Positions 25,005 to 64,000 of a DNA stretch of 64,000 nt are shown one piece after another; the first letter of the stretch is position 1; each line of letters begins with the position of its first letter. Below the pieces are notes generated by a model, which saw only the letters and a program-made list of their open reading frames with translations, made no database searches and was not told where the DNA came from. The stretch is taken from NCBI RefSeq assembly GCF_030817495.1, contig NZ_JAUSZK010000001.1:2459001-2523000 (forward strand). The letters run 5' to 3'. A program made the position numbers and the translations under genes. This DNA comes from Streptomyces sp. V3I7. Its GTDB lineage: Bacteria; Actinomycetota; Actinomycetes; Streptomycetales; Streptomycetaceae.

Positions 25005-25607
25005 ATGAGCAGCATGAGCAGCACACCGATGGTCACCGCCGACGGCGCCGCCTGGCTCGCCTCCGCAGGAACGTATCCGCGCAGCACCCTCTCCCTCTGG
25101 GACGAGCGGCCGGACGCCCCGGTCGTCCTCCCCTGCGGCACCGCGTTCGACGTGGTGAGCGCCCCGGCGGTCTTCGGCCGCCGGATGCTGGACCGGCTGT
25201 GGAGCGACGGTCCGGGATCGGGCCCGGTCGCGGCGTTCCGGGGCCGCATGCTCCTGTTCGCCGCACCGGGCACGGCCCAGCGCCTGCCCTCGCTCCTGAC
25301 CTGGGAGGAGTGGGGTGCCCGCGATCCCGGCACCCCCCTCCACGTCCCCCCGCTCCTGTGTCACGGCAACGGCGACGCGGTGACCGTCCCGGCCCTGACC
25401 GCCTCGGCCGACGTCCACGACGACGACTCCCCCGACCGCGCCGGCTCCCGCTGGCTGGTCGCCCCCGACTCTCGGCACCCCTGGCTGCCCGGCCCCGAGG
25501 TCCTGCTCTGGGCCGCCGTACGAGCCGCCCGGACGCCCGCGCAAACATCGATTTTTCCTCCCGCCGATCAGAGTGCTAAGGTCTACGACGTCGGCAGGCG
25601 CCGCTAG
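25005..25607 (+). CDS. Primase/polymerase-like N-terminal domain protein (tentative)
   Basis: 200-aa soluble protein starting MSSMSSTPMVTADGAAWLAS, with segments TFDVV-like (GTAFDVVSAPAVFGRRMLDR) and a W-rich middle (LLTWEEWGARDPG). The layout resembles stand-alone N-terminal fragments of bifunctional primase/polymerase proteins common in Streptomyces. The triad of acidic catalytic residues is not clear, so function is uncertain. The end (PADQSAKVYDVGRRR) runs into tRNA-Lys: the TAG stop at 25605-25607 is formed by tRNA bases, so the gene and the tRNA overlap by 10 bp. Confidence 0.6.
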   Translation: MSSMSSTPMVTADGAAWLASAGTYPRSTLSLWDERPDAPVVLPCGTAFDVVSAPAVFGRRMLDRLWSDGPGSGPVAAFRGRMLLFAAPGTAQRLPSLLTWEEWGARDPGTPLHVPPLLCHGNGDAVTVPALTASADVHDDDSPDRAGSRWLVAPDSRHPWLPGPEVLLWAAVRAARTPAQTSIFPPADQSAKVYDVGRRR

Positions 25608-25671
25608 CTCAGTTGGTTAGAGCAGCTGACTCTTAATCAGCGGGTCCGGGGTTCGAGTCCCTGGCGGCGCA
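25598..25671 (+). tRNA. tRNA-Lys (CTT), copy 1
   Basis: Acceptor GCGCCGC pairs with GCGGCGC, anticodon loop CTCTTAA, T-arm GGTTCGAGTCC, discriminator A. Same sequence as the copies at 40432 and 43287. A -10-like TAAGGT lies at 25577-25582. Confidence 0.96.
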
Positions 25672-25677
25672 CGTTGC

Positions 25678-40431: not shown

Positions 40432-40505
40432 GCGCCGCTAGCTCAGTTGGTTAGAGCAGCTGACTCTTAATCAGCGGGTCCGGGGTTCGAGTCCCTGGCG
40501 GCGCA
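40432..40505 (+). tRNA. tRNA-Lys (CTT), copy 2
   Basis: Identical over 74 nt to the copy at 25598. A good -10-like TAGTAT sits at 40384-40389. Confidence 0.96.
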
Positions 40506-40511
40506 CAGAAG

Positions 40512-43286: not shown

Positions 43287-43360
43287 GCGCCGCTAGCTCA
43301 GTTGGTTAGAGCAGCTGACTCTTAATCAGCGGGTCCGGGGTTCGAGTCCCTGGCGGCGCA
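43287..43360 (+). tRNA. tRNA-Lys (CTT), copy 3
   Basis: Same 74-nt sequence as copies 1 and 2. A -10-like TAGAGT lies at 43266-43271. Confidence 0.96.
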
Positions 43361-43368
43361 CAGACCGG

Positions 43369-55052: not shown

Positions 55053-55124
55053 TGTCAGGAGGGCCGACGACGTCATACCGGAAGCGTCAGGGACGACGGC
55101 ACGGTGTGCCCCTGCCTGCGCTGC

Positions 55125-55219
55125 CTGCCCCGCGGGCCTGCCCCGCGGGCCTGCCCCGCGGGCCTGCTCTGCCGGCTCTGCTCTGCCGGCTCTGCTCTGC
55201 CGGCTCCGCTCTGCCCGGC
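55125..55219. repeat. Two abutting tandem repeat arrays upstream of the SEC-C gene
   Basis: Three 13-bp copies of CTGCCCCGCGGGC (55125, 55138, 55151), then at least three 14-bp copies of CTGCTCTGCCGGCT (55164, 55178, 55192) with a degenerate fourth. They lie in the 237-bp gap after the MFS gene. Confidence 0.88.
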
Positions 55220-55289
55220 TCTGCCTGCGAAGGCCGGCCATCCGGTGCTCCCTCTCCTCATGTCACCGCTCGGCAGTACGGTGTCACCC

Positions 55290-56309
55290 ATGCGCCCCGA
55301 CACGCCTGCCGAGAACGTCGACCACACCAACGAAGCGGCACGTCTGGAGCGAGCCGCCGGCCTGTATCCCGAGGACGCCGAGGCCCTGCTCCTCCAGGCC
55401 GCGGCCCACCTGGAACTCTCCGGTGACCGCCCCGCCGCGACCACGCTCTACGACAGCCTCCTCTCCTCCTCCAGGAAACTGGAGAACCCCCACCTGGTAC
55501 GGGCCCTCAAGGCCGCGAACCTCTGGGAGTACGGTCACGAGGCCGAGGCTCGCGCCATCATCGACGGAGTCCGCGCCTCCGCTCCGCGCGACCCGGCTCC
55601 CTGGGTGATCGTGGCCGAGTCGCTGGAAGCCCACGACGAACTGGAAGCGGCCCAGGACACGTTCACGGAGGGAGCCCGCCTCTTCCTCACAGACGCCGCG
55701 GAGCCCTCGCACGACGTCCGCTCCCTCCTCTTCGGCCGCCACCGCGTCCGCAGGATGCTGGGCCTGCCCCACGACGACTGGGACTCGCGGGCCGACACCC
55801 TCCACTCCGCGTCCGTCTCCCTGGACGAACTGCACGACCCCAAGCGCGTATGGTCCCTCGGCTCGGACAACCCGGCGGACCTGGCGGCGGAGATCGCCCG
55901 CCTCAAGGCCGAACTCGACACCTACCGCGAGGCGTTGTCCCGCCCCTTCCCGGTAGCGGTCCTCCACTGGCCGGCGAACGAACTGGGCGAACTGGTGGCG
56001 GCGTACCCATCCCTGTCCACGGAATACCCCTCCCATGACCGGCACCTGGCGACGATAGAGGCGTCCCTGCGGGAACTGGCGTCCTCCGGCACGGCGAACC
56101 TGGGAATCGTCACGGGAACGGTCCCCTCCTACGAAGCCTTCGCGGCATCGGAGGCGTCATCCCCGGCGGACGTGACGCTACTGCCCCAGTACGCGACGAC
56201 GCTGGCGGCGCGGGGACGGGCTGTGGCTTGGCCTCCGCAGCGGGGGGATGGGTGTTGGTGTGGGGTGGGGCGGACCTACAGTGCCTGCCACGGGGACCTG
56301 GACGCCTGA
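55290..56309 (+). CDS. TPR-like protein with C-terminal SEC-C zinc motif
   Basis: 339-aa soluble protein. N-terminal half consists of TPR-like helices (LERAAGLYPEDAEALLLQAA, AAHLELSGDRPAATTLYDSL). The final ~20 residues hold CWCGVGRTYSACHG, the SEC-C C-x-C...C-H zinc knuckle that binds ribosome or SecB partners in other proteins. Function unknown. The start at ATG 55290 lacks a strong ribosome site. It marks the last gene with normal Streptomyces codon usage before the accessory island. Confidence 0.85.
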   Translation: MRPDTPAENVDHTNEAARLERAAGLYPEDAEALLLQAAAHLELSGDRPAATTLYDSLLSSSRKLENPHLVRALKAANLWEYGHEAEARAIIDGVRASAPRDPAPWVIVAESLEAHDELEAAQDTFTEGARLFLTDAAEPSHDVRSLLFGRHRVRRMLGLPHDDWDSRADTLHSASVSLDELHDPKRVWSLGSDNPADLAAEIARLKAELDTYREALSRPFPVAVLHWPANELGELVAAYPSLSTEYPSHDRHLATIEASLRELASSGTANLGIVTGTVPSYEAFAASEASSPADVTLLPQYATTLAARGRAVAWPPQRGDGCWCGVGRTYSACHGDLDA

Positions 56310-56525: not shown

Positions 56526-56969
56526 TTGAGCACGATGAAGCCATTGTCGCCTGCCGTCTCGGCGCGCATGAGCAGGCAAGCCAGCAAGGACACGGCTACC
56601 GAACTGGCGGTCCGTCGCCTGCTCCACGCGGCCGGGCTGCGCTACCGCGTGGAATACCCGGTGCCTGGCATGGCTCGACGCCGGATCGACGTGGCATTCA
56701 CATCGGTCAAGGTGGCGGTCCTGATCGACGGATGCTTCTGGCACGGTTGCCCCGAACACGCCACGCATCCGAAGTGGAACGCAGAGTGGTGGCGGCAGAA
56801 GCTGGATCGCAACATGGCGCGGGACGCGGAGACCACGGAGCACCTCGTGGCCGCCGGGTGGGAAGTGCTGCGGTTCTGGGAGCATGAAACTGCAGAAGAC
56901 GTGGCATGGCGCATTGCGGCGGTGGTAAAGCAGCGGAGGGCCCAGCAAAGACGGGGGAACAAGCGATGA
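56526..56969 (+). CDS. Vsr-type very-short-patch-repair endonuclease, island gene 1
   Basis: About 147 aa. Family order is clear: RQASKDTATELAVRRLLHAA, LRYRVEYPVPGMARRRIDVA (catalytic Asp in RIDVAF), VAVLIDGCFWHGCPEHATHP (Cys/His zinc site), WWRQKLDRNMARDAETTEHL, and GWEVLRFWEHE. In E. coli Vsr nicks T:G mismatches made by Dcm. In islands like this Vsr-fold enzymes can be the restriction nuclease. TTG 56526 or ATG 56535/56568 could be the start. It overlaps methyltransferase homologue A by 4 bp (ATGA). GC content is visibly lower than upstream. Confidence 0.9.
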   Translation: MSTMKPLSPAVSARMSRQASKDTATELAVRRLLHAAGLRYRVEYPVPGMARRRIDVAFTSVKVAVLIDGCFWHGCPEHATHPKWNAEWWRQKLDRNMARDAETTEHLVAAGWEVLRFWEHETAEDVAWRIAAVVKQRRAQQRRGNKR

Positions 56970-57937
56970 GTGGGCTGACCTTTGTCGACGTGTGCTCGGG
57001 GGCCGGCGGGCTCGCCCTCGGACTGGAGCAGGCTGGCTTCGAACCGAGCCTGTTGCTGGACGAGGACGCCGATTCCTGCCGGACCCTGCGGGCCAACCGA
57101 CCACGGTGGAACGTGCTCCAAGCGGACCTTCTGGATCTCGACCCGAGCGAGCATCCGGAGAGCTACGACGTGGATCTGTTGTCCGCGGGACTGCCTCGGG
57201 TGAAGTCCAGCGCCACCGCCGCTCGGGCCGAGTCGGGCGCGGAGGAGCGGCTCCTGAGGGCAGCCGTCTACCTCGCCCACGCCATCAGGCCCCGGGCGCT
57301 GCTGATGGAGAACGTGCCCACCCTCGTACACGGGGACAGGTTCCGCGACTTCCGCGAGTTCGCCCGTGCCGAACTGGATCATCTCGGTTACGAGTTCAGC
57401 TGGTTCGTCCTCAACGCTGCGGATTTCGGAGTGCCACAGGATCGCAAGCAGGGGGTACTGGTGGCGATCAAGAAAACGTGGCACCCCTCCTTCCGTTCGC
57501 CTTCCCCCACCGTGGCCGACCATGTCTCGGTCGGTGAGGCCCTGGCGCCGTCCATGCGCTCGCGTGGCTGGAAGGACGCCGACCGATGGGCAGCCCAAGC
57601 AATCGCCGTGGCTCCGACCCTGGTCGGCGGCTCGAAAAGCCACGGTGGGGCGGACCTGGGGCCTTCCGGAACCAAGCGGAAGTGGGCTGGCCTGGGGGTG
57701 AACGCCCACTCGCTGAGCAACGAGCTCCCAGGGCCCGAATTCGTGTGGGCGCCGGAGCGCGGCAAAGACGGGATGGTGCAGCTCACGGTGGACCAGACAG
57801 CCCTGCTCCAGAGCTTCCCCGAGGGCTGGGAGATCACTGGAAAGAAGACGGCCCGATACCGGCAGATCGGCCATGCCTCCCCGCCACCGGTGGGCGAGGC
57901 GCTCGGCCGGGCCATAGCCCACGCACTCCGATCCTGA
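56966..57937 (+). CDS. C5 DNA methyltransferase homologue with degenerate active site
   Basis: 323-aa protein with the C5-methyltransferase fold: motif I TFVDVCSGAGGLALGLEQAG, motif VI ALLMENVPTLV (Glu115-Asn116-Val117), motif VIII PQDRKQGVLVAIKK, and motif X YRQIGHASPPPVGEALG. The catalytic motif IV, normally PPC, reads GLPR (residues 75-78), so Arg78 replaces the essential Cys. No frameshift is needed to explain this, and both flanks are well preserved. It should bind SAM and DNA but not methylate by the usual route. Translationally coupled to Vsr, so possibly the nuclease's target-recognition subunit (inference). Confidence 0.88.
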   Translation: MSGLTFVDVCSGAGGLALGLEQAGFEPSLLLDEDADSCRTLRANRPRWNVLQADLLDLDPSEHPESYDVDLLSAGLPRVKSSATAARAESGAEERLLRAAVYLAHAIRPRALLMENVPTLVHGDRFRDFREFARAELDHLGYEFSWFVLNAADFGVPQDRKQGVLVAIKKTWHPSFRSPSPTVADHVSVGEALAPSMRSRGWKDADRWAAQAIAVAPTLVGGSKSHGGADLGPSGTKRKWAGLGVNAHSLSNELPGPEFVWAPERGKDGMVQLTVDQTALLQSFPEGWEITGKKTARYRQIGHASPPPVGEALGRAIAHALRS

Positions 57938-58035
57938 ACGATGAATCTCCAGGTCAGATCAGAAGTGGCAGGTTCGCGACCGGCCGCATGATACAGGCGA
58001 TGGACACGATCCACGGCTAGCTACACTTCCACCTC

Positions 58036-59262
58036 ATGACCCGAGCACCTCATCCCGACGCGAATCAGGATCCGCCCGTCATCGTCGACCTCTTCGCGGG
58101 ACCGGGCGGCCTCGACATCGCAGCCGAGGTGCTCAATATCCCCACCATCGGCGTGGAGTGGGACGAATCGACTCGAGTCACCCGGCGTGCCGCCAACCTG
58201 CGGACGACCGAGATCGGGGACGTGGCAAAACTGAACCCGCTCGACCCGGAGGTCGCCTCGGCCAGCGTCCTCACCGGCGGGCCCCCCTGCCAGACCTACT
58301 CCGTGGCAGGAAACCGCGAGGGACACAAACATCTCGATGACGTGAAGCACCTGGCCCAGCTCGTGGGGCAGAGCAAGAACGTCGGGGAGCTGGAGAAGAA
58401 CTGGGCGATGGTCGAGCAGACAGCTCGCATGCTGTCATGGGCCGACGAGCGCACCGGGCTCGTACTCCAGCCCCTGCGGTGGATCGTCGAGAAGATGCTC
58501 AAGTCCGACCCCTACAAGGTGGTGGTGCTGGAGCAGGTGCCGACCGTCCTGCCCGTCTGGAAGCACTACCGCGACATCCTTCGCGAGCTCGGATACGACG
58601 CGGATTGCCACATCCTGCACACCGAGGAGTACGGGGTGCCACAGACACGTCGCCGCGCGGTACTGATCGCCCGTTACCGGGGAAGCGCAGGCAAAGGTGT
58701 CGAGTTCCCACCCCTGACGCACCAGCGCTACCGCAAGGGGGTGAAGCGCCTCTCCGCAGCGCCTGAAAACACGGCGCCGACGAGTGACGTTCAGCAGAAC
58801 CTGCCCTTCGAGACCCCGGATCCCGCCCCCGCCGCGAGGAAGCCGTGGGTCTCCATGGGCGACACACTCAAGGACTCCCGTTCCACGGAATTCGTCGTTC
58901 GCTCCAACTACGGCTCGGGCGGTGACCCCGAGAAACGAGGACTCCGCACCTCCAACGATCCGGCCGCCACGGTCACCGGCAAGGTACTGCGCAACAGGGT
59001 GTTCGACCTCAAAGGCTACGACGCTGGCGATCAACCTGAACTGGGGCCGGAACAGGACCGTTTCACGTTTCCCGAGGCCGGCCTACTGCAGACCTTTCCT
59101 GCCGAGTACCCGTGGCGAGGCACCGACGTCGCGCAACAGATCGGCAACGCGATCCCGCCGCTCCTGGCCATCCACGTCCTGTGCACAGCATTGCAACTGG
59201 ACGAGGACCACAAGCAGCGAGCCATCAAAGCACTGGGGACCTGGCGTCCTCCCCACTTGTAG
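58036..59262 (+). CDS. Active-type C5 DNA cytosine methyltransferase
   Basis: 408-aa methyltransferase with complete motifs: motif I VDLFAGPGGLDIAAEVLNIP, motif IV LTGGPPCQTYSVAGNR (Cys85), motif VI VVLEQVPTVLPVW (EQV instead of ENV; Glu166), motif VIII PQTRRRAVLIARY, and motif X AQQIGNAIPPLLAIHVL. A ~120-residue variable region between VIII and IX gives target recognition. Likely protects host DNA in the island's system. A -10-like TACACT sits at 58022-58027, 8 nt before the ATG, so it could be expressed leaderless and apart from gene A, 98 bp upstream. Confidence 0.93.
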   Translation: MTRAPHPDANQDPPVIVDLFAGPGGLDIAAEVLNIPTIGVEWDESTRVTRRAANLRTTEIGDVAKLNPLDPEVASASVLTGGPPCQTYSVAGNREGHKHLDDVKHLAQLVGQSKNVGELEKNWAMVEQTARMLSWADERTGLVLQPLRWIVEKMLKSDPYKVVVLEQVPTVLPVWKHYRDILRELGYDADCHILHTEEYGVPQTRRRAVLIARYRGSAGKGVEFPPLTHQRYRKGVKRLSAAPENTAPTSDVQQNLPFETPDPAPAARKPWVSMGDTLKDSRSTEFVVRSNYGSGGDPEKRGLRTSNDPAATVTGKVLRNRVFDLKGYDAGDQPELGPEQDRFTFPEAGLLQTFPAEYPWRGTDVAQQIGNAIPPLLAIHVLCTALQLDEDHKQRAIKALGTWRPPHL

Positions 59263-59289
59263 AGAGGACACCGGCCAGGACTGCTCGGA

Positions 59290-60168
59290 TCAGCTTTCGT
59301 CCACTGCTTCCTCGCTCTCGTCCTTCCCGCGCACGGGCGCGTCCGCGAACAACTCCGCGAAGTGGTCCGTCAGGCGATCCACCGATGCCTCGGGGGCGTG
59401 CTCCTCGACAGGGCCATGAGGAAGAGGGCGATGGTGCACGGAGAGACCCTGCTCACCCTCGTCGATCCACCTCTGGACAGCCCCGGCATCCCGCTCCACG
59501 TCCGGCGCGATCACGTCGTACATCAGAGTCGCGGCCGCCGTGTTGACGGCTTTGCCCAGCGCGTTCGCATCACGGCCCGTCCGGACGACGTCCCTCTTCA
59601 GCAGCCGGACCAGCGCCTGCGCCGTCGGGCGGTGATCGATGACGTCCAACCTCAGCACCGTGTTCAACATGTCCTGGTTGCCACAGGCGGTGACCACCGG
59701 TTCATAGTCGGAGCCGTTACGGAACAGTTCGGCCGACCACCAGAGCCGGGCGAAGGCCTGCTTGTGATAGGGCCCTTTGAAGTAGCGGGCGTTGACGGTC
59801 TTCGTCTCGGAACGGTGACGCCAGACGACGAAGTCGGGAGCGACACCGAGGGCCAGGTAGTTCCACAGCGCGGAGTCCGCGGCCTCCGCACGCGTCAGCC
59901 GAAGGACGGCGTGCAGACGTGGCGCGAGCCAGGCGTCCACCTGCGTCGGCCGGTCGTCGCGGTACGTGTACATCGCGTCGTCGATCAGGTCCCGTATCGC
60001 GCGAAGTCGCGTCCGAGGGGTCTCGGGCAGCGGCTCGGAAGCCTGGTTCAGAGCGATCGACGGGACGTTGTCCTTCCCTGACAGCAACCCGTCCGTGATG
60101 AACCTCGCCGCGTTCTCGTCGGCCAGTCGCGCCAGGTACTCGGGCAGCTGGTCGGGCCTCTCCGTCAT
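59290..60168 (-). CDS. DUF6339-like protein, last gene of the island operon
   Basis: 292-aa soluble protein. Segments: PDQLPEYLARLADENAARFI, ADSALWNYLALGVAPDFVVW, RYFKGPYHKQAFARLWWSAE, and ACGNQDMLNTVLRLDVIDHR. I recall this pattern from DUF6339 proteins, which have no known activity. Acidic C-terminus (GKDESEEAVDES). ATG overlaps the upstream gene's stop by 4 bp, and the end faces methyltransferase B, 27 bp away. The coupling argues for a subunit of the same complex. Confidence 0.65.
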   Translation of the reverse strand: MTERPDQLPEYLARLADENAARFITDGLLSGKDNVPSIALNQASEPLPETPRTRLRAIRDLIDDAMYTYRDDRPTQVDAWLAPRLHAVLRLTRAEAADSALWNYLALGVAPDFVVWRHRSETKTVNARYFKGPYHKQAFARLWWSAELFRNGSDYEPVVTACGNQDMLNTVLRLDVIDHRPTAQALVRLLKRDVVRTGRDANALGKAVNTAAATLMYDVIAPDVERDAGAVQRWIDEGEQGLSVHHRPLPHGPVEEHAPEASVDRLTDHFAELFADAPVRGKDESEEAVDES

Positions 60169-61157
60169 GCCTCGTCCTCACGCTTGAGCTTGTCCAGACC
60201 GCGTACGGTCTCCGAGAGCACCCTGGGCACCTCGGCCCTTCGCATCGCCGCGTACTGGATGCGCGGCTGCAGTTCTGTCCACCCCGTCGCACCCACACGC
60301 CGGCGGTGCACCTCACGCAGGGCGTCCTCGAGAGTGCGGTCGGGCACGACATCGGGGAGCATCTCCCTGAGCACCTCGCCCTGCCAACCGTTCGGGAACA
60401 GCGGTGTGCCGTCGTCCTCGATCTCCAGATCGCCGATGGCCGAATGAAACACGGCGATCCACACGTCGGCGGCCATCTGGGACACCATCAGTTCATTGAC
60501 CAAACCCTCGGGGCCCCTTCCCTCGGCGCCGAGGACGTCCGTCATACCCTCGAAGTCGGTGTTGATATGCACGGTGGGCAGCGTGCCCGACGCGTTCACG
60601 ATCCACGGGGCGTCGGTGAAGCTCCGCAGCCAGCTCGGGCCCTTGGCGAAACCGACTTCCTTGATGTCGAAGCTCTGCTCCCGTGTCGGGGTGTCGCTCC
60701 GCACGTCGACGATCCACTCGTCAGCCGCTTCCGCGATGATCCGTCCGGGCACCCCGTCGACCGTCGCGACCACCTGGACCGTCAGTGAGGCGCGGTCGAA
60801 AACATCCGCGCGCAGAACCTGCAGTTCACCGCGCCATTCCCGGCCGCCCTCGACCTCGGGGGCGAGCCGGGACGTGACACGCATGTTGGTCGTCCTGTCG
60901 GCCAGCACCGCGGCCACCACGACATCGGACCACGGGCCGCCCGGCTCGGTGGCCTTCGAAGGAATCGTGGCGGAGATCGCCAGGGTGGCGCTCTCCCAGT
61001 CCTCCGTCTCCGCCAGGCCGAGTGCGACGGCGCGCTCGATCACGGAGCGCGCGCGGGAGTCGAGCCGCTCGCGGGGCTGTTCGGGCGCCTTCACACTCGC
61101 CGCGTCAACCCGCAGGGAGACCGTGCCGCGCAGGCGTGGGTACGGGAAAACCTTCAT
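60165..61157 (-). CDS. Unknown 330-aa protein, second gene of the island operon
   Basis: Soluble protein, not recognised. The N-terminal ~140 residues are beta-rich and regularly patterned (GELQVLRADVFDRASLTVQV, VVATVDGVPGRIIAEAADEW). The C-terminal ~150 residues are helical (VNELMVSQMAADVWIAVFHS, PDRTLEDALREVHRRRVGAT). ATGA overlaps on both sides link it to the GHKL ATPase and the DUF6339-like gene. Confidence 0.7.
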   Translation of the reverse strand: MKVFPYPRLRGTVSLRVDAASVKAPEQPRERLDSRARSVIERAVALGLAETEDWESATLAISATIPSKATEPGGPWSDVVVAAVLADRTTNMRVTSRLAPEVEGGREWRGELQVLRADVFDRASLTVQVVATVDGVPGRIIAEAADEWIVDVRSDTPTREQSFDIKEVGFAKGPSWLRSFTDAPWIVNASGTLPTVHINTDFEGMTDVLGAEGRGPEGLVNELMVSQMAADVWIAVFHSAIGDLEIEDDGTPLFPNGWQGEVLREMLPDVVPDRTLEDALREVHRRRVGATGWTELQPRIQYAAMRRAEVPRVLSETVRGLDKLKREDEA

Positions 61158-63289
61158 GACAGCGACTCCCCTTCACCGGTGCGCAGTTCGACGACGAGCC
61201 CGCTCAGACTCGACCTGACGGCGTGTGTCGCGGGATCCGTCACTCCGCGGAACGTCGCTGAACGCGCTTCGTCGGAGAGACGCAGGGTGCCGTCCACCAC
61301 CTGGCAGTTGTTCACTCCGACGAGCTCGGCCCACTCGATGGTGGGCCGCGGCCCGGAGCGTACGTCGAACTTGGCCACCGGGGCGAGCCGCCAGGTGTGG
61401 CCACCGGCAGGAATCCTGATCTCGCCGATCACCTGCCAGGCTCCGCCGTCGAGCAACTGAGCGTCCAGTTCCTCCAGTACAGGCAGCGTCGCCGCCGACA
61501 GGCGACGCGCCTTCTTCGCCGAGCCCACGGTCAGCTTCGGAGCCAGGCGCCCTCCCCCTGCCTTGGACTTCTTCTTGGGACGGACCACCAGCTCCTTGAT
61601 CGCCGCATTGGTCTCCCGAGTGAGGGAGGCTATGCGCCGGTACGCCGAGGGCGAGTAGGTGAGCGTGAGCTCCTCGGTCTGTCCCCACTTGTTGTGCTCC
61701 GGGGGCTCAGCGGCGCGAAGGAACTCCTCTGCCTCGGCTGCGAACGGGGCCTGTGTGCCCGCGGCATCGCCGGCCAACAAAACGGCCTGGAACGGGTTGA
61801 TGGACAACGGCAATCCGGGGACGGCGGCGTCCCGTACCGTCATGCGATTGCCTCGCATGGCCGCGACACGATTGGATTTGCCGTCGGCGTCCTCGGCGTC
61901 CGTCACCAGAAGCACGGCGCGGTGCTCTCCCAGAGAGCCTCGTCCGCCATCTCGGGTGGGCAGTTGCAGGGGCACGGTGGTCGCGGCGACCTGCCCGGAT
62001 TCCGTGAGCCGTTCCACGGTCGTGCCGTCGAGGAACGCCTTCAGAGCGCGTGTGCGCGAAGGCTGTGTCACCGTGGGGTCGACGCGCTCCTCCGGGAGGA
62101 CCACCTCGCCGTTGCGGAGGGTGCGCACGGAGGCCTCCAGCAGAGGCAGTCGGTCGCCACCCCCCGTCATCGCCGCCCAGAAGTTCTTGCCCAGCGCCTG
62201 CACGAGCCTGCGATGCATCCGATGGATGCTGTCGTCGTCATCGCCCTCGTCGTCATCGGGTACGCGGTTGGCATCCACGAGGCTCGCCACGTCGTGGGCT
62301 CCGACGATCAGGAACGATGTCCCGGGCTCACCGCTCTCACGCGTCAGATGAAGGGAAGCGACCGTCTCCTCGTCCGCCCACCAGGAGCGTGCCACGGCGG
62401 CTCCCGGCGAGTCGGGGTCGGGTCGCCCGAGCCACGCCGGCCCTGCCCACGCGCTGCCGTCCACCTGACGCCACGGCAGGTCCAGCCGCCCGATGAGTCG
62501 CCGTTCGGTCCGGCCCTCGTGCGGTTCGGACAGCGTGGAGTTCATGAGTACGAGGCCGAGTCGACTGGTGGCCCACAGAGTGGCCTTGCCCAGACCGTAC
62601 GAACCGCCCGCCGAACTACCGGACTTGTGGCTGTCGAGCTGACGCCTCACCACTGCCGCGAAGCGGCCGTCGTCGTAGTCGTCGCCCGTCAGACCGGCGG
62701 CGTTGTAGTCGTCCACCCGCAACAGCACAAGCCGGTCGTGCTCGTACATGTCCCGCAGCCCGGAGTCGATGACCCGGCCGACCTTCTGTTCCTGGGCGGC
62801 AGCCGTCACGTAGTGCGGGTAGAGGTCGTCCCACCGGATCGCTTCTCGGAACCTCGCGAGGGTCTCGCCGGTGAGTTCGTGCAGGGTGTAACGGACACGT
62901 ACAGGTTGCCCGTTGGCGGTCAGCCGCTCATCGAGACTGTTCTGGCAGGTCTCCCTTGCGAGCACCTCCACGTCCGCGTCGAAGGCGAACGCCGCGGCAT
63001 TGCCCAACTCGCGGCCGCCGTCGGCGTGTCCGGGACGGTGGTACCAGCCGACGGGGAGGCCGGCCTGGGTGTCGGCGGTGCGGGTGTGCACCGTGGCCAG
63101 ATCGGTGTTCAATGCCCGAGCGATACGTTCGATCGTCTCAGGTCGCGGGGTGGCCCGTCCGGTGATCCACGCCGAGACCGCCGCACGCGTCACGTCCACG
63201 GTCTGGGCCAGCTCGGTCTGCGTCATGTCGGCGAGCTTCAACTGCCGCGCCAGCCATGGACCGAAGTCCTCGCTTGCTTCCACGGTCAC
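61154..63289 (-). CDS. XRE helix-turn-helix fused to GHKL (Hsp90/MutL-type) ATPase
   Basis: 711-aa protein and first gene of the operon. Residues ~8-70 are an XRE DNA-binding domain (LKLADMTQTELAQTVDVTRA, then AVSAWITGRATPRPETI). A GHKL ATPase follows: N-box EVLARETCQNSLDERLTANG (~105-125), a DxxxxGL-type loop RVDDYNAAGLTG, and glycine lid SSAGGSYGLGKATLWATSR (~220-240). The remaining ~400 residues are not recognised; they include a basic patch (RPKKKSKAGGGRLAPK) near 560. GHKL ATPases accompany Vsr and C5 methyltransferases in MutL/MORC-type restriction systems described by Aravind's group; direct fusion to XRE is unusual. GTG 63289 or GTG 63283 is the start. Confidence 0.82.
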   Translation of the reverse strand: MTVEASEDFGPWLARQLKLADMTQTELAQTVDVTRAAVSAWITGRATPRPETIERIARALNTDLATVHTRTADTQAGLPVGWYHRPGHADGGRELGNAAAFAFDADVEVLARETCQNSLDERLTANGQPVRVRYTLHELTGETLARFREAIRWDDLYPHYVTAAAQEQKVGRVIDSGLRDMYEHDRLVLLRVDDYNAAGLTGDDYDDGRFAAVVRRQLDSHKSGSSAGGSYGLGKATLWATSRLGLVLMNSTLSEPHEGRTERRLIGRLDLPWRQVDGSAWAGPAWLGRPDPDSPGAAVARSWWADEETVASLHLTRESGEPGTSFLIVGAHDVASLVDANRVPDDDEGDDDDSIHRMHRRLVQALGKNFWAAMTGGGDRLPLLEASVRTLRNGEVVLPEERVDPTVTQPSRTRALKAFLDGTTVERLTESGQVAATTVPLQLPTRDGGRGSLGEHRAVLLVTDAEDADGKSNRVAAMRGNRMTVRDAAVPGLPLSINPFQAVLLAGDAAGTQAPFAAEAEEFLRAAEPPEHNKWGQTEELTLTYSPSAYRRIASLTRETNAAIKELVVRPKKKSKAGGGRLAPKLTVGSAKKARRLSAATLPVLEELDAQLLDGGAWQVIGEIRIPAGGHTWRLAPVAKFDVRSGPRPTIEWAELVGVNNCQVVDGTLRLSDEARSATFRGVTDPATHAVRSSLSGLVVELRTGEGESLS

Positions 63290-63345
63290 CTGCTCTCGGG
63301 TTGTGCTCCACTTGCGTAGGACAGCGAGGCCACCCTACCCGCGCC

Positions 63346-63381
63346 TTTGACAACCGGCCCCTTGTCAAAGGGTCTTTGACA
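63346..63381. promoter_or_regulatory. TTTGACAA inverted repeat upstream of the island operon
   Basis: Perfect 8-bp arms TTTGACAA (63346-63353) and TTGTCAAA (63362-63369), centre-to-centre 16 bp, plus a third half-site TTTGACA at 63375-63381. Located 57-92 bp upstream of the HTH-GHKL start. Possible operator for that protein's own helix-turn-helix, or part of the promoter (TTGACA is also a -35 element). Confidence 0.6.
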
Positions 63382-63867: not shown

Positions 63868-64000
63868 ATGTCTTCTGACTTGACCCCTGTGATCAAGACC
63901 GTGGTCGATCAATCCTCCCGTGTTCTCAGGACGTACGCCGTCGATCCCGGCCTCATACCTGAACACGCCAACGGAGAAAGGCGGATCACCCAGGGTGGAT
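63868..64000 (+). CDS. Start of a gene, possibly sacsin-like/Hsp90-type ATPase (truncated by window)
   Basis: Only 44 codons are visible: MSSDLTPVIKTVVDQSSRVL, then TYAVDPGLIPEHANGERRIT and QGG at the edge. GGAG lies 5 nt upstream of the ATG. The phrase ANGERRITQGG resembles the segment just before the N-box of sacsin-type histidine-kinase-like ATPase domains in large bacterial defence proteins; the N-box itself is outside the window, so this is tentative. Codon use is less GC-biased, as in the island. Confidence 0.5.
   Translation, partial: MSSDLTPVIKTVVDQSSRVLRTYAVDPGLIPEHANGERRITQGG

Follow-up and report, generated by a model that had tools for sequence, protein, structure and literature searches.

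Six genes at positions 56526 to 63289 of a 64,000-nucleotide stretch of Streptomyces sp. V3I7 (contig NZ_JAUSZK010000001.1, positions 2,459,001 to 2,523,000; hereafter the window) form the interior of a larger, conserved, predicted anti-phage cluster which is cut by the window end. They encode a Vsr-type endonuclease, a pseudo-C5-methyltransferase (A), an intact C5-methyltransferase (B) and a trio consisting of an XRE-GHKL ATPase, a middle protein named MID here and a DUF6339 protein. The six genes were present where the original prediction had placed them, and the overlaps of 4 bp (vsr/A, DUF6339 gene/MID and MID/XRE-GHKL) and the convergent gap of 27 bp between B and the DUF6339 gene were seen in the DNA. 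The lower GC content of the module was also recovered in 1-kb windows (64-69% versus 69-76% upstream). However, the module had been described as ending at 63289 and as having no helicase, and both statements were wrong. Four further genes of the system follow, nearly all of them outside the window, and the apparent lack of a helicase was a window-edge effect, because the SacDEAD, UvrD-type and DrmA-like genes lie in the same genome at or just beyond the window end. The same gene order was found again in relatives, including named species, and the arrangement is therefore not a matter of chance.

The proteins of the six genes were searched against Pfam, NCBIfam and PADLOC models, which confirmed the assignments of Vsr, two C5-methyltransferases, DUF6339 and an XRE helix-turn-helix. 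The features are listed below, with those beyond 64000 given in window-equivalent positions.

56526 to 56969, plus strand: vsr, Vsr-type endonuclease, 147 amino acids (aa); start TTG at 56526, with an in-frame ATG at 56568 as alternative start.
56966 to 57937, plus strand: pseudo-C5-methyltransferase A, 323 aa; start ATG at 56966; PF00145, 147.4 bits.
58036 to 59262, plus strand: C5-methyltransferase B, 408 aa; PF00145, 99.7 bits; PADLOC MTase_II PDLC03374, 433 bits.
59290 to 60168, minus strand: DUF6339 protein, 292 aa; PF19866, 46.6 bits (cut-off 23.2); PDC-M33C, 28.5 bits.
60165 to 61157, minus strand: MID, 330 aa; no family match.
61154 to 63289, minus strand: XRE-GHKL (helix-turn-helix and GHKL ATPase), 711 aa; HTH_3, 47.9 bits; PDC-M33A, 80.4 bits.
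63344 to 63371, upstream of XRE-GHKL: inverted repeat CCTTTGACAA-N8-TTGTCAAAGG, a possible operator.
63868 (ATG) to 68625, plus strand: SacDEAD, 1585 aa; divergent from the GHKL gene and crossing the window end at 64000.
68622 to 70535, beyond the window: UvrD-type helicase, 637 aa; UvrD-helicase, 89.6 bits.
About 70574 to 73781 (L259:3575-6782), beyond the window: DrmA-like helicase in two frames; PADLOC DrmA, 601 bits.
73778 to 75646, beyond the window: DrmB-like protein; PADLOC DrmB, 248 bits; MZB PF09369, 34.6 bits.

The catalytic Cys by which active C5 methyltransferases are recognized is absent from A, because its motif IV reads GLPRVKSS where B has GGPPCQTYS, in line with the predicted inactive A beside an intact B. 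Arg78 (codon 57197-57199) stands at the catalytic position and was aligned to the Cys of DNMT1. Relatives of A were collected from 297 genomes, giving 109 rows, or 107 after removal of two duplicates (L177 = L134 and L178 = L069). Arg occupied the catalytic position in 57 of these 107 genes and Cys in the other 50. The Arg-type genes formed a single branch of the tree with one origin (support 97/94), and Arg was present in all 57 genes of this branch. The trio was found in the same locus for 56/57 Arg-type genes, and for 0/50 Cys-type genes within the stretches fetched. Loci L123-L128 fell short of some or all of the trio marks in this census because the GHKL gene, which shares their contig at a distance of 12.5-14.2 kb, was at or outside the fetched edge. 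In 18 genomes the Arg-type A was fused to DUF6339.

A and the Arg branch are under purifying selection, with a ratio of nonsynonymous to synonymous substitution (dN/dS) lower than that of the active B: against five relatives A gave 0.13-0.19 and B 0.20-0.34, and Vsr gave 0.10-0.18. The fixed Arg and the low dN/dS led us to reject the idea that A had simply decayed in one strain. In a 32-row alignment the motif I glycines, the Glu-Asn of motif VI, the Gln-x-Arg of motif VIII and parts of the recognition domain were conserved, as expected if A still binds S-adenosylmethionine and DNA. The loss of the catalytic Cys in every close relative examined suggests that A has been retained for reading DNA and not for methylating it. 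Besides the Arg-type genes, the Cys-type relatives (L104-L117 and L143-L174) pair with Vsr without the trio, and these pairs may simply serve restriction-modification or repair.

Alternatively, A could belong to the modification side as a regulatory or recognition subunit of B, in the way that DNMT3L pairs with DNMT3A, with restriction left to Vsr, GHKL and the helicases. A lies between Vsr and B in one operon and adjoins an active C5 methyltransferase in a sister operon, which would fit such a role, as would the joint replacement of B and A in L061 (79 and 83% identity, versus 40-53% for the trio). However, A is constant while its active partner varies, the position of B being filled by different C5-methyltransferase families (MTB or MTC types). 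The identities of A and B correlate at 0.55, no better than those of A and the trio (0.61-0.63), and where A is fused, it is joined to DUF6339 and not to an active methyltransferase. We consider a subunit role of A unlikely. B itself keeps the catalytic Cys, and across 35 alignment rows the conservation of PCQ was at least 97%. Its match to DrmMII models was only 65 bits, against 433 bits for another type II model. Two more C5-methyltransferase genes are present in the same genome (G000:C1 32744-33952 and 2051941-2053407).

The trio was complete in 42/42 loci, where it was accompanied by three kinds of helicase module, and sequence identities within it correlated at 0.96-0.98. The Pfam search of XRE-GHKL gave no ATPase match, and its assignment as a GHKL protein is based on the PDC-M33A match of 80.4 bits together with conserved ATP-binding motifs. 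The motifs RExxQNSxD, DxxxxGLxG and GGxxGxG were kept in 19/19 rows, with E113 and N117 invariant. In the same 19 rows E528 and H532 of an ExxxH motif at residues 528-532 were invariant, and the S5 fold around this motif is putative. For MID, neither Pfam nor NCBIfam nor PADLOC (the last at E<=1) gave a match; its structure is predicted to have a beta-rich N-terminal half and a helical C-terminal part (pLDDT 89.7, pTM 0.78). PF19866 was detected at E<=1e-5 in only 4/396 genomes of a phylum sample, so DUF6339 is rare outside the taxonomic family of this genome at this threshold.

Plasmid-borne relatives of the GHKL protein were found on three haloarchaeal plasmids (27.6-32.3% identity, none aligned over 80% of the query). 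On the Halobaculum plasmid NZ_CP081960.1 (L264) the trio lies beside DISARM genes for DrmA, DrmB, DrmC and DrmMII, and this locus also carries an ATP-binding protein matching type II restriction enzyme models. The Halomicrobium plasmid NZ_CP084091.1 (L265) has two nearby GHKL relatives, one of which (1-1576) is beside a methyltransferase. In PADLOC the trio resembles the candidate PDC-M33, the GHKL protein matching M33A (80.4 bits) and the DUF6339 protein M33C (28.5 bits); the archaeal proteins scored higher against the same two models, with 104.9 and 71.6 bits. However, PDC-M33 is a database candidate, and MID matches none of the PADLOC models.

On the helicase side, the N-terminus of SacDEAD is sacsin-like (PF25794, 24.8 bits, under the cut-off of 32.8), its C-terminus is a ResIII/DEAD helicase (60.6 and 48.3 bits), and its top PADLOC match is TmtA (134.9 bits). 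In this assembly two frames share the DrmA-like homology between them, and the 601 bits belong to the C-terminal open reading frame of 583 aa. No DrmC was recognized after DrmB in the gene list, the genes there not having been scanned with models. PF10593 had no match in this genome, and a match is present in the sister operon. Genes neighbouring the trio loci match the PADLOC models DrmA, DrmB, MzaC and MzaD. The Mza system was reportedly described by Gao in 2020. In the accessible part of Miller et al. 2022 (PMC9523054), mzaABCDE is named as a validated system, and the putative defence system type I given there is one of the closest known systems to the present locus.

Two other kinds of system are comparable. 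According to the accessible text of PMC2292703, the MORC/paraMORC restriction systems of Iyer, Abhiman and Aravind share with this locus GHKL ATPases, cytosine methylases, Vsr nucleases and SFII helicases, and an ExxxH like the one named for paraMORC2 is present in the GHKL gene here. MID, DUF6339 and the pseudo-methyltransferase are features of this locus that the same text does not describe, and the word 'inactive' is absent from it. As far as PMC9142583 could be consulted, DISARM has in common with the locus the DrmA-like and DrmB-like genes and a C5 methyltransferase, whereas the GHKL trio, SacDEAD, UvrD, Vsr and the pseudo-methyltransferase are extras of the locus. A literature search, outside which most subscription journals lay, returned nothing on DUF6339 or PDC-M33, nothing combining four of DISARM, GHKL, Vsr, cytosine methyltransferase and Streptomyces, and, by title and abstract start, nothing pertinent on inactive methyltransferases in defence; reports may exist outside its coverage.

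The inverted repeat upstream of XRE-GHKL contains TTTGACA-N10-TGTCAAA in the window. The strict form, TTTGACA-N2-12-TGTCAAA, was found upstream of the GHKL gene and no more than 200 bp from it in 12/119 loci, with one other match in 2.47 Mb, and a relaxed form in 29/119; the motif is thus at best clade-specific. It may serve as the operator of the XRE protein in this clade.

On the other side of the cluster, a SEC-C/TPR-type gene (55104-56309, plus strand) adjoins vsr. It was rejected as a part of the system, being present in 131/297 genomes versus 42 with a near-full-length GHKL and standing beside three kinds of Vsr loci (13/40 unfused Arg, 5/19 fused Arg and 16/49 Cys). Because of this frequency and these varied neighbours, it probably marks a defence hotspot. 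Such a hotspot could hold no single system at all, but three separate defences stacked beside the SEC-C/TPR gene: a Vsr-methyltransferase restriction-modification unit, the trio (PDC-M33) and a helicase group of DISARM-like type. The wide occurrence of that gene, the exchange of the cassette apart from the trio in L061 and the different helicase modules between loci all speak for stacking, which we regard as improbable. About 50 bp from a SEC-C gene in another genome (G170:C1:5249617-5250956) there is an XRE fragment like GHKL residues 1-89, with a stop, which is perhaps what remains of a copy that has been lost. Possible integration sites in the window are three genes for tRNA-Lys (CTT), at 25598-25672, 40432-40506 and 43287-43361.

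Vsr matched the subfamily model TIGR00632 with 107.2 bits, above the cut-off of 97.85. Aligned to E. coli Vsr (1cw0), it showed matches at E26, D55 and H73, while D68 took the place of His64 of the E. coli enzyme. This Asp (DGCFWH) occurred in all 68 xxGCFWH matches of the fetched loci, 20 of them in Cys-type loci. Vsr might act purely in repair, fixing T:G mismatches from deaminated 5-methylcytosine (5mC) at B sites and standing outside restriction; the subfamily match and the presence of Vsr with C5 methyltransferases, including Cys-type A relatives (49/50), agree with this. The Asp resembles a general PD-(D/E)XK site, but it does not settle the matter, because it is shared by the 20 Cys-type loci. 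Vsr has also been reported together with such putative defence systems in the accessible parts of PMC2292703 and PMC9523054, and a function in repair only seems very improbable to us.

The scheme proposed originally, in which B marks self, A and Vsr recognize and cut, and the GHKL operon gates or amplifies the response, is partly supported overall. Our favoured explanation of the whole locus, to which we give an even chance as one joint account, assigns a step to each part. B would write 5mC, and A would read its own site in unmodified DNA. Loss of the Cys in M.HhaI-type enzymes need not abolish DNA binding and can strengthen it. DUF6339 would couple A to GHKL; their fusion shows the pairing, and the coupling is our inference. 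It has been reported that MORC/paraMORC ATPases are tied to restriction systems by gene context (Iyer 2008, PMC2292703, in its accessible part), and GHKL could act as an ATP-driven clamp, after the proposal made there for MORC-type ATPases. According to the part of PMC9142583 consulted, DNA carrying a 5' overhang switches DrmAB on, and methylation of the DNA slows the ATPase of DrmAB. Vsr and the helicases of the Streptomyces cluster would finally destroy the DNA.
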